64,000 nucleotides of DNA from Clostridiales bacterium (GTDB lineage Bacteria; Bacillota; Dethiobacteria; Dethiobacterales; Dethiobacteraceae). The DNA lies in the NCBI GenBank assembly GCA_018335855.1, contig JAGXRM010000060.1, positions 1 to 64,000 on the forward strand, read 5' to 3'. Position numbers and translations under genes: made by a program. The notes beneath the pieces were generated by a model. That model was given only the letters and a program-made list of their open reading frames with translations. It was not told where the DNA came from and did no database searches. How positions within the stretch are numbered: position 1 is the first letter of the stretch; the number at the start of each line of letters is the position of its first letter. This document shows, piece by piece, positions 37,455-59,362 of this stretch.

Positions 37455-37928
37455 ATGTCTTCCTTTCTGTCACAAAAAGAAATAGAGCAATTAATGAACA
37501 AGCTGAACTCTGATGTGGTGGATGCCGTAAAGAGTGAGCGGATGACCTCAGAAGCAATAGAGTCTTCAGTCGGGGCTGGAGGAAAAACGGTTGCAAAGGA
37601 AATACCAATACAGGAAATTGAGATTGTTCGTTTTCCCGAGCTGGAAATAATAAAGGCCCGCCCGGAAAAGCGGGATTTGACTGCATTCCGGTCTGTCCCC
37701 GTCAGATTGAGTCTGGATCTTGGGGCAGCGGTTCTTACCATTCGCGATGTGCTCTCTTTGCAGAAAGGTTCTATAGTCAAGCTTAACAAGTTAGCCGGTG
37801 AAAATGTTACTCTCCGTGTCAACGGCAGGTCCATGGCTTTAGGGGAAGTCGTGGTTATTAACGATAATTTCGGTTTCAGAGTAACCGGCATGGGCACGAC
37901 GGCTGAGAAGGAAAAGGAGCAAGAATAA
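37455..37928 (+). CDS. fliN: FliN-like motor switch protein (first copy)
   Basis: A 157-residue C-ring protein. The N-terminal SFLSQKEIEQLMNKL resembles the CheY-binding peptide of FliM/FliY (consensus LSQxEIDxLL). A linker is followed by one SpoA (FliN) domain (SVPVRLSLDLGAAVLTIRDVL; RVNGRSMALGEVVVINDNFGFRV). It occupies the place between fliL and fliO where fliM-fliY or fliM-fliN are usual. A second FliN is at 52280. It may build a distinct part of the switch. Confidence 0.85.
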   Translation: MSSFLSQKEIEQLMNKLNSDVVDAVKSERMTSEAIESSVGAGGKTVAKEIPIQEIEIVRFPELEIIKARPEKRDLTAFRSVPVRLSLDLGAAVLTIRDVLSLQKGSIVKLNKLAGENVTLRVNGRSMALGEVVVINDNFGFRVTGMGTTAEKEKEQE

Positions 37929-51127: not shown

Positions 51128-51303
51128 CCCGACTCCTCCTCCTACTGACTCTTATGTCATATTTCTACAAATAACTGAATTTACCTGCCAATTTAAACAG
51201 GATTTTGAATTATACGAATTTATCGGAAGTTCAAAAGGAAATTTTCACCTGTCTGTCGAATCTCACACAAGAATATGTTTTTCTGAAATAGGTGGTGGAA
51301 AGA

Positions 51304-52287
51304 TTGAAAGAAGTATTATCCCAGACAGAAATTGACTCGCTGATCCACGCCTTGTCCACGGGACAGATTAATCCTGATGAAAAAGATGCGGCGATGACGG
51401 ATACGTCAGTCCGTGTCTATGATTTCCGCCGTCCCAATAAATTTTCGAAAGAACAGATGCGTACGTTACAGGTTGTCCATGAAAACTTTGCACGTATCTT
51501 AGCTAACTTCTTGTCGGCATATCTGCGTACACCGGTGCAGATTCGACTGGCTTCTGTTTCACAGGTGACGTTTGAAGAGTTTATTTTTTCCCTGCCGACA
51601 CCGACACTCATGACAATCTTTAGCGCATCATCTGACTTGGGAAGCGCCATGCTTGAAACAAATCCCCAGTTTGTCTTTCCCATCATTGATTTGCTCTTTG
51701 GCGGTGAGGGCGAGACACCGAGAAAGATTAGGGAACTGACGGAAATAGAACTGACAGTGATGAAAAGAATAATCCTGAAAATCATGGAGAATCTTCGTTA
51801 TGCCTGGGAAGATATTGTGGAGATAAATCCTGTCATTGAAAATATGGATACGAACCCCCAGTTTAATCAAATGATTGCTTCCAACGAGACGGTAGCCTTA
51901 ATCACTCTCTCTACACAGATTTGTAAATCAGAGGGTTTGATTAATGTTTGCTTCCCCTATATGACCCTGGAGAAAGTTATCGGTAACCTGACAGCACAGC
52001 ACTGGTTCTCAACGTCCCAGCCCCTTTCCAAACACAGTAAGCAGTTGGTAGAAAATTCGCTAGAGCAAGTTGAGGTGGAAGTATCGGCGATTTTGGGCAG
52101 CGCGACAATCTGTGTAGAGGACTTTCTCCAATTTGAAGTAGGTGATGTCATCCTCTTTGAACAAAAAGTGGACACTCCCATGACATTACTGGTGGAGGGT
52201 GATCCTATGTACGATGTGCAGCTCGGAGTGTTCCAGGGGAACCGTGCCGTTCAACTTCTTGCTCCTAAGGAGGATAAAGATGAGTGA
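51304..52287 (+). CDS. fliM: Flagellar motor switch protein FliM
   Basis: A 327-residue C-ring protein. The N-terminal CheY-P-binding peptide is LSQTEIDSLI, the middle CheC-like domain includes YDFRRPNKFSKEQMRTLQVVHENFARIL, and a SpoA-type C-terminal domain ends the protein. TTG 51304 is chosen because AGGTGG is 8 bases upstream; the GTG codons at 51292/51295 lie in the RBS. The 176-base gap to the divergent FapA gene shows no confident promoter. Confidence 0.95.
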   Translation: MKEVLSQTEIDSLIHALSTGQINPDEKDAAMTDTSVRVYDFRRPNKFSKEQMRTLQVVHENFARILANFLSAYLRTPVQIRLASVSQVTFEEFIFSLPTPTLMTIFSASSDLGSAMLETNPQFVFPIIDLLFGGEGETPRKIRELTEIELTVMKRIILKIMENLRYAWEDIVEINPVIENMDTNPQFNQMIASNETVALITLSTQICKSEGLINVCFPYMTLEKVIGNLTAQHWFSTSQPLSKHSKQLVENSLEQVEVEVSAILGSATICVEDFLQFEVGDVILFEQKVDTPMTLLVEGDPMYDVQLGVFQGNRAVQLLAPKEDKDE

Positions 52288-52699
52288 TGCCCTTCTTTCC
52301 CAAGCCGAAATTGATGCACTGCTCTGCCAACTCTCCGAGCCGGAGCCAGCCAAGCCTGCCTTCGATGAAGCAATAGCGGTAAATGCAACAGAGATCCAGC
52401 CGGCTAAAGCTGTCCAGGGGAAAACGGCCAGGAAAGATCATCCCAATCTTGAGCGGATTCTTGATATACCTTTGAATGTGATGGTAAGCCTGGGAGAAAT
52501 CCGAAAGGAAGTACAGGATATCCTTGCACTACACCCCGGTACAATCGTGGAGCTGGAACGTATTGCCAATGAACCGGTGGATATTTTCATTAACGGCAAA
52601 TTAATTGCCCGGGGTGAAGTGGTGGTCGTCGATGAGCGCTTTGGTGTCCGGGTAACACATATTATTAGCCCGCATGAGCGTATAAAAAGATTAGTATAG
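52280..52699 (+). CDS. fliN: Flagellar motor switch protein FliN (second copy)
   Basis: A 139-residue FliN. MSDALLSQAEIDALLCQL is a FliM/FliY-like CheY-binding peptide, then a linker and a full SpoA domain (DIPLNVMVSLGEIRKEVQDILAL; INGKLIARGEVVVVDERFGVRV). ATG 52280, after AAGGAGG, overlaps the fliM end by eight bases. Upstream codons in this frame are not conserved. Confidence 0.93.
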   Translation: MSDALLSQAEIDALLCQLSEPEPAKPAFDEAIAVNATEIQPAKAVQGKTARKDHPNLERILDIPLNVMVSLGEIRKEVQDILALHPGTIVELERIANEPVDIFINGKLIARGEVVVVDERFGVRVTHIISPHERIKRLV

Positions 52700-52736: not shown

Positions 52737-52815
52737 ACTGTTTATAACCAGTATAGGAAGGAATATGTAAGCAATCGTCGAAATAAGTCTAAAACGTACC
52801 GGAAGGCGGTTGACC

Positions 52816-54495
52816 GTGAAAGAATTAACTCCTATGCAACTTGATGCCATTGCAGAAAGCGGCAATATATCTATGGGATCTGCCGCCACTGCCCTGTCCA
52901 ATTTGCTTGGACAGAAAGTCGGTATAACGACTCCCCGTCTTACCTATACCACTGTAGGCAAGGTCAGGGCAAAGTATCCTTTGCCCTGTGTCCTTGTGCG
53001 TGTTAACTATACAAAAGGTTTGAGCGGGAGCAATCTCTTTGTTCTCACCGATCGGGACGCCGGCGTGATTGCTAATATGATGATGGGTGATCCCGACCTT
53101 CCTGTGCCGGAAACGCTGGATGAAATGTATCTTAGTGCCGTCAGTGAAGCGATGAACCAGATGATGGGGTCTTCCGCCACAGCATTGGCGGATATGTTTG
53201 GTCGGCCTATTGATATTACACCGCCGGAATTGGAATACATTGACTTGGGAAATGAACAGGTTGGCATAAACGGCCTGGGCGATGAGACAAGTATGATTGA
53301 AGTGGCTTTTGATTTAACTGTCGGAGAATATATCAGCAGTACTATGCTTCAACTCTTACCGCCTGATTTTGCTGAACAGATGGTTGCCGAACTTTTCGGC
53401 AGCGTGGGTATATCAGAAGAAACGGAGTCTGTGGCTGAAGCTGTAGTGGAGGCCGTAGATACGTCCCAAAAGCCTGAACATGGGGATACATTGAATATGG
53501 AGCCTCTGGAAGAGGATGCAATCTCTGAAATAGGCAATATTTCCATGGGAGCGGCAGCGACTGCTTTATCCATGCTGTTGGACAAGAGGGTTACTATAAC
53601 GACTCCCCGGGTTTCCATTACCACTTTTCAGGAAGTTAGGGATCAGTTCCCTGTGCCTTGTGTGGTCGTAAAAGTCCGGTATCGGAGCGGGCTGGAGGGT
53701 GACAATGTTTTAATTATCCGGGAGCATGATGCGGCAGTAATCGGCAATTTAATGATGGGTGATCCAGACTTGCCGGTTCCTGAAACGTTAGATGAAATAT
53801 ATTTAAGTGCTGTCAGTGAAGCAATGAATCAAATGATTGGTTCATCAGCCACGGCTCTTTCTGACATGTTTAACCGTCCTGTTGATATTTCCCCCCCCGA
53901 AACCGAGTACCGTGACCTGGGCGGAGAAAATATCAAGATTGATAAGCTTATTGAAGAGGACCCACTGGTTCAGATTTCTTTTCGGATGGAAGTTGCCGGC
54001 ATAATAGATAGTGAATTGATTCAACTTGTACCGCTAAATTTCGCCCGTGAAATGATTAAAGAACTTTTAAGTGCAATTCACGGGTCAGTTGCGGTTCCTG
54101 CTACTGTTGAGGCCAAGATGGAAGCAGTTGCGGAGCCAAAACCGTTTCCAATCCCCGCCCCAGTCCCTGCCCCGGTTGCTGCTCCTTTTCCAGTTGAACC
54201 GGAGCAGGCGACAATGATGGAAGGTGCGGCTTGTGAGATTCTACAGGGAGTACAGATAGATTTAATTCGTGATATACCCGTTCAGATTACCGGCCTGCTT
54301 GGCAGCAGAACGCTCCCCCTTAAAATATTGATGGAAATGGCTGCTGGCTATGTGGTTGATTTGAACTGCGTTGCTGATACGCCACTGGATGTTCTGGCCA
54401 ACGGGAAATTGGTGGCCCGGGGTGAAATTGTTTTGGTGAATGATCAGTTCGGGGTGAAAATTACTGAGATTATTCAGCCTTGGTCTTTTAATTAA
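52816..54495 (+). CDS. fliY: FliY-like switch protein with two tandem CheC domains and a SpoA domain
   Basis: A 559-residue protein. Two CheC phosphatase modules (about 1-200 and 225-425) are followed by a Pro/Ala-rich linker and a C-terminal SpoA (FliN) domain (INGLL-type VLANGKLVARGEIVLVNDQFGVKI). All four D/S-x3-E-x2-N active-site motifs are kept (DAIAESGN, SAVSEAMN, DAISEIGN, SAVSEAMN). Over a 57-residue block the modules are identical at 49 positions. Normal FliY has a single CheC domain and about 380-400 residues. It would dephosphorylate CheY-P at the C-ring. GTG 52816 follows GGAAGGCGG. Confidence 0.9.
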   Translation: MKELTPMQLDAIAESGNISMGSAATALSNLLGQKVGITTPRLTYTTVGKVRAKYPLPCVLVRVNYTKGLSGSNLFVLTDRDAGVIANMMMGDPDLPVPETLDEMYLSAVSEAMNQMMGSSATALADMFGRPIDITPPELEYIDLGNEQVGINGLGDETSMIEVAFDLTVGEYISSTMLQLLPPDFAEQMVAELFGSVGISEETESVAEAVVEAVDTSQKPEHGDTLNMEPLEEDAISEIGNISMGAAATALSMLLDKRVTITTPRVSITTFQEVRDQFPVPCVVVKVRYRSGLEGDNVLIIREHDAAVIGNLMMGDPDLPVPETLDEIYLSAVSEAMNQMIGSSATALSDMFNRPVDISPPETEYRDLGGENIKIDKLIEEDPLVQISFRMEVAGIIDSELIQLVPLNFAREMIKELLSAIHGSVAVPATVEAKMEAVAEPKPFPIPAPVPAPVAAPFPVEPEQATMMEGAACEILQGVQIDLIRDIPVQITGLLGSRTLPLKILMEMAAGYVVDLNCVADTPLDVLANGKLVARGEIVLVNDQFGVKITEIIQPWSFN

Positions 54496-58359: not shown

Positions 58360-58722
58360 GTGGGAAGAAAGGTTTTAATTACTGATGATACAGCATTTAT
58401 GCGAATGACTCTGCGCAACATTCTGGAGAAGAATGGTTATGAGGTGGTAGGGGAGGCAGAGGACGGACAGGTTGCGGTGGATAAGTATTCAGAGCTGCGA
58501 CCGGACCTCGTTACTATGGATATTACTATGCCGAGAATGGACGGAATTACAGCGATTAAGAAGATCATGGAAGTGGACCCGCAAGCGAAGATTGTCGTCT
58601 GCAGTGCTATGGGTCAAAAAGCATTAGTTATTGAGGCACTGAACGCCGGCGCCCGCGATTTTATTGTTAAGCCTTTTCAGGCGGAGCGGATTATTAATGC
58701 CATCCAGAAGATTATGAGTTAA
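58360..58722 (+). CDS. cheY: Chemotaxis response regulator CheY
   Basis: A 120-residue single receiver domain. Phospho-acceptor Asp54 (VTMDITMPRMDG), acid pair Asp9/Asp10, the Ser of VVCSAMGQ and Lys of IVKPF are present. CheY-P binds FliM and FliY N-terminal peptides. GTG start preceded by AAAGGAGG. The 100-base gap after cheA shows no clear promoter or terminator. Confidence 0.96.
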   Translation: MGRKVLITDDTAFMRMTLRNILEKNGYEVVGEAEDGQVAVDKYSELRPDLVTMDITMPRMDGITAIKKIMEVDPQAKIVVCSAMGQKALVIEALNAGARDFIVKPFQAERIINAIQKIMS

Positions 58723-58744: not shown

Positions 58745-59362
58745 GTGCCTGAATTACCGTTATGTGATGAGTTTAAATTAGACGTTTTAAAAGAGATGGG
58801 CAACATTGGTGTCGGCAACGCTGCCAATGCTCTATCTCAAATGCTGAATTTTGAAAAAGTGGATATGTACATTCCTGAAGTGGCGATGTGCCCGCTAAAT
58901 GAGATCCCTGATATGATGGGCGGAGCGGAAAATACAGTAATCGGCATTTATATTAAGGCGCCAGGAGAAGTGTGCTTCTATACAGTCTTTCTTTTAAGCC
59001 TGGAAAGTGCGGATTCTTTGATTATCAACTTGACGGGAGAAACGCATTCTTCTCAAGACGCCATGGGCCAATCGGTATTGCGGGAAGTTGGCAATATTAT
59101 TACGGCGGCTTACCTGAACGCACTGTCATTTATGACTGACCTGACCTTCCTCCCGACGCCGCCGGTACTGGCCGTTGACATGGCCGGCGCTATACTCGGT
59201 ACAATTCTGGCCGAGGCGAATATTGCCGAGGACTATGTTCTCGTGTTAAAAACGGCACTTGCCACAGCAGCTGGAGCAATTGAGGGCAGTTTTTTAATCA
59301 TCCCCGATGTAGATTCATTAGACACGGTTGTGAACCTGCTTGTAAACGGAGCGTGTCGATGA
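58745..59362 (+). CDS. cheC: CheY-P phosphatase CheC
   Basis: A 205-residue CheC. Two active-site helices are LDVLKEMGNIGVGNAANALSQML and SVLREVGNIITAAYLNALSFM, both with the Glu and Asn pair. CheC binds CheD and dephosphorylates CheY-P. GTG start after AGGTGGG. Overlaps cheD by four bases. Confidence 0.95.
   Translation: MPELPLCDEFKLDVLKEMGNIGVGNAANALSQMLNFEKVDMYIPEVAMCPLNEIPDMMGGAENTVIGIYIKAPGEVCFYTVFLLSLESADSLIINLTGETHSSQDAMGQSVLREVGNIITAAYLNALSFMTDLTFLPTPPVLAVDMAGAILGTILAEANIAEDYVLVLKTALATAAGAIEGSFLIIPDVDSLDTVVNLLVNGACR

Follow-up and report, generated by a model that had tools for sequence, protein, structure and literature searches.

A FliY protein with two CheC modules and no N-terminal docking peptide in a flagellar and chemotaxis gene cluster

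Results

The fliY locus and the phosphatases of the genome

The window, the whole stretch of 64,000 nucleotides that was analysed, carries flagellar and chemotaxis genes in the order fliM (51292-52287), fliN' (52280-52699), fliY (52816-54495), cheW (54515), cheA (56266) and cheY (58360). The features used below are the following.

37455-37928, plus strand: FliN2, a second FliN (157 aa), N-terminal FLSQKEIEQLM and SpoA, directly before fliO/fliP
51292-52287, plus strand: FliM, N-terminal docking peptide LSQTEIDSL
52280-52699, plus strand: FliN', a small FliN-like protein (139 aa), N-terminal docking peptide LLSQAEIDALL and SpoA; ATG start with AGGAGG; directly upstream of fliY
52804-52809, plus strand: AGGCGG, ribosome-binding site of fliY
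52816-54495, plus strand: fliY, 559 aa from a GTG start; in order, CheC module 1, a linker, CheC module 2, a long Pro/Glu linker and SpoA
52816-53400, plus strand: CheC module 1 (residues 1-195), active sites ESGN (residues 14-17) and EAMN (111-114); AlphaFold2 pLDDT mostly 80-94
53080-53250, plus strand: block of 57 residues in module 1 that shares 49/57 with module 2; it probably donated sequence in a partial gene conversion in the genus ancestor
53401-53490, plus strand: inter-module linker (residues 196-225), predicted by AlphaFold2 to be disordered
53491-54075, plus strand: CheC module 2 (residues about 226-420), active sites EIGN (238-241) and EAMN (335-338); close to Thermotoga maritima FliY 4hyn
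53752-53922, plus strand: the corresponding 57 residues of module 2, which probably received the converted sequence
54076-54267, plus strand: Pro/Glu-rich linker of about 64 residues (421-484), predicted by AlphaFold2 to be disordered
54268-54480, plus strand: SpoA/FliMN_C domain (residues 485-555), Pfam 2e-19, PDB 1o6a 2e-17
58360-58722, plus strand: CheY, the expected substrate
58745-59362, plus strand: separate CheC (205 aa), both E-x2-N sites present (EMGN, EVGN)

The fliY frame is open to the TAA at 54495 from either TTG 52810, at which the mechanical call begins, or GTG 52816, and the GTG is preferred because AGGCGG lies upstream of it at 52804-52809. The product is a true FliY, scoring 551 bits against the FliY equivalog NF005995 (NCBIfam), whose cut-off is 218. 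The best-matching stretch is residues 214-557, that is, module 2 and SpoA, and by this measure module 1 is therefore the extra piece. Pfam gave two CheC matches in each module, four altogether (E 9e-53 overall), together with FliMN_C, and placed a CheX match inside module 1. The SpoA domain is the part expected to build into the C-ring. An AlphaFold2 model built on a 17-sequence alignment contains two CheC domains, mostly above pLDDT 80, disordered linkers of 30 and about 65 residues, and a SpoA domain of poor model quality; the top PDB match found by Foldseek is Thermotoga maritima FliY (4hyn), with a TM score of 0.91 by target.

Searches of the whole genome found no CheZ, no stand-alone CheX and no CheV, the only CheW-domain frames being two of CheW size and CheA. 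The lack of CheZ and CheV that an earlier note on this DNA had reported for the window thus extends to the genome. CheC is the only other recognised CheY-P phosphatase family present and, with both its sites kept, it stands as the further phosphatase module that the same note had proposed.

Both CheC modules are old and conserved

At the DNA level, positions 53031-53249 of fliY repeat at 53703-53921 with 71% identity and a spacing of 672, and over their full length the two modules share 118/213 residues. The tandem duplication of a CheC module within a FliY-like protein, first noticed from the letters alone, is therefore borne out by the four CheC matches, the FliMN_C match and the NF005995 score. 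The earlier figure of about 224 residues per module describes the repeat unit, which is about 224 codons long, and not the folded CheC domain of about 195 residues, the rest being linker. The E-x2-N motif is present at 4/4 positions (ESGN, EAMN, EIGN and EAMN), as the note had stated, and on sequence grounds both modules look catalytically intact. Similarity between the two copies is highest in the catalytic block, and their C-terminal parts differ strongly (30% identity).

The reported identity of 49/57 residues between 53080-53250 and 53752-53922 was reproduced exactly. Within this block pS is 0.77 and pN is 0.11, in agreement with the view that the DNA differences are mostly silent and that both copies are selected, and over codons 1-150 of the modules the values are 0.71 and 0.26. 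Given that silent sites are saturated and pN is low, both copies are old and under purifying selection.

The most similar block probably reflects gene conversion

The 49/57 block is not typical of the duplication and stands out in the genus of the window. Module 2 was compared with module 2 of L009, a FliY of another genus. Over the module's N-terminal 86 and C-terminal 57 residues, module 2 of the window is 70% and 55% identical to that of L009 and 52% and 30% identical to its own module 1; inside the 57-residue block the order flips, with 86% identity to its own module 1 and 63% to module 2 of L009. Among the diagnostic residues of window module 2, 15 are module-1-like and 4 module-2-like inside the block, against 8 and 17 outside it (Fisher p 0.0027, for a block that had been picked by the earlier note for its identity). 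The genus mate L008 has the same pattern (p 0.02), and module 2 of L009 also leans to module 1 inside the block, by 10 to 6. In a tree of the block only, module 2 of both genus members nests among the module 1s of the family; outside the block it does not. AU tests on these short stretches did not reject the alternative, and AU tests on the placement of the family's module 2 did not decide between positions. It is suggested that the 49/57 identity probably goes back to an old gene conversion that was partial and covered the region of the second active site in the genus ancestor. A recent duplication as the source of the block is ruled out by the saturated silent sites and by the flanks of module 2, which resemble module 2 of other genera more than they do module 1.

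The docking peptide lies on FliM and FliN' and not on FliY

The EIDALL motif of FliM and FliY is the binding site of CheY-P, and the peptide is stated to be carried by FliM and FliY of all motile bacteria (PMC9126983). The FliY of the window has no N-terminal peptide of this type and starts directly with CheC module 1. Docking peptides are found on FliM and on FliN' (52280-52699), whose N-terminal sequence is MSDALLSQAEIDALL..., and FliN2 carries a docking-like peptide (FLSQKEIEQLM) in a weaker form than that of FliN'. In the window's class a small SpoA protein just upstream of FliY is the rule, most with an EIDALL or EEMNALL-type peptide. The class therefore breaks the stated rule, in that FliY lacks the peptide, which is usually on FliN' instead. 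The number of SpoA proteins per genome is four here, two in five and three in another five tethered-FliY genomes, and four in the Bacillus cereus-like genomes with double FliYs.

A pattern search of 122 FliYs found the docking peptide to be absent in 31/31 multi-CheC FliYs, and present in 79 single-CheC FliYs and absent in 12, a few of which could still be misses, since a first, stricter pattern had overlooked variants such as LSQEEIDALT. Eleven of these 12 come from the window's class. When ancestry was allowed for, the association of missing peptide and extra modules gave a median sign test p of 0.25 with only two or three informative pairs; the evolutionary link is not significant and is suggestive at most.

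Module number has changed repeatedly

FliYs of the window's class, among whose members are soda-lake MAGs labelled Syntrophomonadaceae, have one, two or three CheC modules, in open frames of 319-390, 536-622 and 805-821 aa respectively. An even sample of 397 genomes of a large phylum-level group gave only five full-length double matches, all from the window's own class (these sample genomes were equated with genomes already in hand by matching contig coordinates: G705=G004, G753=G032, G554=G024, G861=G010 and G800=G022). In Bacillales, double FliYs occur in 2/397 genomes, both B. cereus-like (L131/L132), and one further case is a Ruminococcus-labelled genome (L047). Double FliYs are thus rare outside the class. 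The domain search for CheC-CheC-SpoA that the earlier note had proposed therefore gives a divided answer: the layout is not unique, being found in NF005275, in B. cereus-like Bacillus and in many family relatives, and it is rare elsewhere. In the open library, no paper was found on the CheC-CheC-SpoA layout or on the variation from one to three modules. The double layout already has a database model, and the wider pattern, in which the number of CheC modules evolves in FliYs that lack the docking peptide, is more interesting than the layout itself.

A maximum likelihood tree built from 95 modules groups the two copies with each other in the Bacillus pair (100/99), and likewise in L047 (100/100) and L035 (100/98); group f3 contributes twelve modules, which make up a single clade (99/98). 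These groupings require at least four independent duplications and rule out a single duplication at the base of all double FliYs. Losses are also indicated: the single-module relatives in the window's family (L023, L028, L029 and L031) have modules of the module 1 type, suggesting that module 2 was lost. The E-x2-N sites are kept at 4/4 positions in 22/28 two-module proteins. Module 2 is present without its sites in L015 and L016 of the window's family (LRES and LQES instead of ENEN). Their genus mate G018 has a FliY gene divided between two contigs (L024, L137), and its module 2 appears degenerate too. Module 1 has degenerate sites in the two-module L117, L121 and L124 and also in L018, as does the first module of the three-CheC FliYs L017, L019 and L022 (805-821 aa).

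Three further loci were observed during the survey. A second FliY-like gene at G003:C91:73105-74082 is 54% identical to module 2 and SpoA and has an in-frame TAA; it may be a pseudogene or contamination. The Ruminococcus-labelled genome G099 has two FliM-size SpoA frames (L138, L162), of which one lies beside the double-CheC FliY and the other adjoins a SpoA protein of 360 aa that yielded no CheC motif. In L068, from a Halobacteroidaceae MAG, an interruption within the CheC module splits the FliY frame into two ORFs, perhaps through a sequencing error.

Discussion

FliY acts as a CheY-P phosphatase at the switch of Bacillus subtilis (PMC340952; PMC9126983). The FliY of the window shares with the B. 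subtilis type (EIDALL-CheC-SpoA; NF005995/PRK08119) the CheC fold, two E-x2-N sites per module, a C-terminal SpoA domain and a gene beside fliM, but has two modules instead of one, no N-terminal docking peptide and, unlike that type, a separate FliN' encoded beside it. Thermotoga maritima also combines a CheC-type FliY (4hyn) with a separate FliN (1o6a/1yab); its FliY is 40% identical to one module of the window protein (TM 0.91 by target), the solved CheC region being a single module, and homodimerises via its N-terminal domain (PMC7355467). Two CheC domains also occur in CheC3 of Halobacterium salinarum (PMC3579733). That protein and the other CheC/CheX phosphatases have the same fold and E-x2-N sites but no SpoA domain, and so are not C-ring subunits.

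The closest counterpart in domain order is NF005275 (PRK06782, 'flagellar motor switch protein'), to which the window FliY aligns over its full length (protein 4-555 on profile 5-516) with 449 bits, below the curated cut-off of 681 bits. FliYs of the ordinary single-CheC type cover either the first 206 or the last 330 positions of this profile, and its best matches are the Bacillus doubles L131/L132, which match end to end with about 650 bits. The B. cereus-like doubles also lack the EIDALL peptide. They differ from the window in that the gene comes after cheY-cheA rather than after fliM-fliN', and their modules are sisters of each other, so that the duplication was independent of the one described here. 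The Bc1627-Bc1629 genes of B. cereus have the same layout as the Bacillus double locus, and Bc1629 is called only 'CheC/FliN' (PMC12848376); the NF005275 model and the gene layout suggest that it too has two CheC modules.

It is proposed, with moderate confidence, that the protein is a genuine C-ring FliY whose two CheC modules hydrolyse CheY-P and whose extra module offsets the lost docking. The SpoA domain would incorporate FliY, together with FliM and FliN', into the C-ring base; the two CheC domains, on flexible linkers, would hydrolyse CheY-P docked on the EIDALL-type peptides of neighbouring FliM and FliN'. Given that FliY lacks the peptide, the receiving of the signal (FliM, FliN') and its erasing (FliY) would be split between subunits. 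FliN' would furthermore compete for SpoA positions that FliY fills alone in B. subtilis, and under such a split, with a diluted share of the ring, extra CheC modules could restore the phosphatase dose per motor. The catalytic activity of each module, the C-ring position and the compensation of dose are what we infer from these comparisons. Compensation is opposed by the 12 FliYs that have no recognised peptide and one module, so that splitting off the peptide does not require more modules; moreover, one module has lost its sites in some relatives, and the extra module would therefore sometimes be decaying or used otherwise.

The earlier note had suggested that the motor may drain CheY-P unusually fast; on this reading the second module would raise total hydrolysis above normal, and the cell would respond or adapt faster. 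The four intact sites in FliY and two in CheC, and the purifying selection on both modules, fit this proposal. It is nevertheless unlikely, given that FliY has lost the docking peptide that brings CheY-P, that FliN' and FliN2 may dilute FliY in the ring, that total activity depends on the FliY copy number per motor and on kinetics, and that one module is lost or inactivated in relatives. The missing peptide favours compensation no less than extra speed. The same relatives raise the possibility that labour is divided, with one module hydrolysing CheY-P and the other serving mainly as a dimerisation or binding domain or acting on another receiver domain: a site-less module is kept in L015/L016 (module 2) and in L017, L019, L022, L117, L121 and L124 (module 1), the C-terminal parts of the modules are only 30% identical, and dimerisation through the N-terminal domain has the precedent of T. 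maritima FliY (PMC7355467). For the window protein this too is improbable, because none of the four sites is damaged and the copies are most alike in the catalytic block.

It could also be argued that chemotaxis is little affected when the modules of a peptide-less FliY duplicate, convert or disappear, since copy number drifts from one to three within one class and at least four independent gains and several degenerations are seen overall. This near-neutral course is a good deal harder to accept, as silent sites are saturated while, throughout the depth of the family, both copies strongly conserve their replacement sites, those of the four active sites included. A false duplication of the stretch in the draft assembly, for which only the division of the genome into 60 contigs speaks, can be ruled out with near certainty: even where the two copies match best, 29% of bases differ, and genomes of the genus, the family and the class that were assembled independently show this layout as well.

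A broader form of the compensation proposal is more speculative and is put forward tentatively, as possible though not probable. The C-ring of the whole class would be split into a receiver, FliN' with the peptide, and an eraser, FliY without it, the latter bearing one to three CheC modules as an evolvable array, and the lifetime of CheY-P at the motor would be set by their number. If this is true, the repeated independent duplications, which include those in the peptide-less FliYs of Bacillus and the Ruminococcus-labelled genome, would form a natural series relating phosphatase dose to motor behaviour. The many changes of module number in related genomes in any case provide natural variants for studying the amount of CheY-P hydrolysis that a motor requires and whether one subunit has to carry both docking peptide and phosphatase.

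A minor observation concerns translation. An S/T-P-P motif occurs once per FliY module, as ITPP and ISPP (residues 135-137 and 359-361), and SPP at Ser164 of B. subtilis FliY is an EF-P dependent ribosome pause site (PMC6613710); with one such motif in each module, the double FliY may therefore depend more on EF-P.
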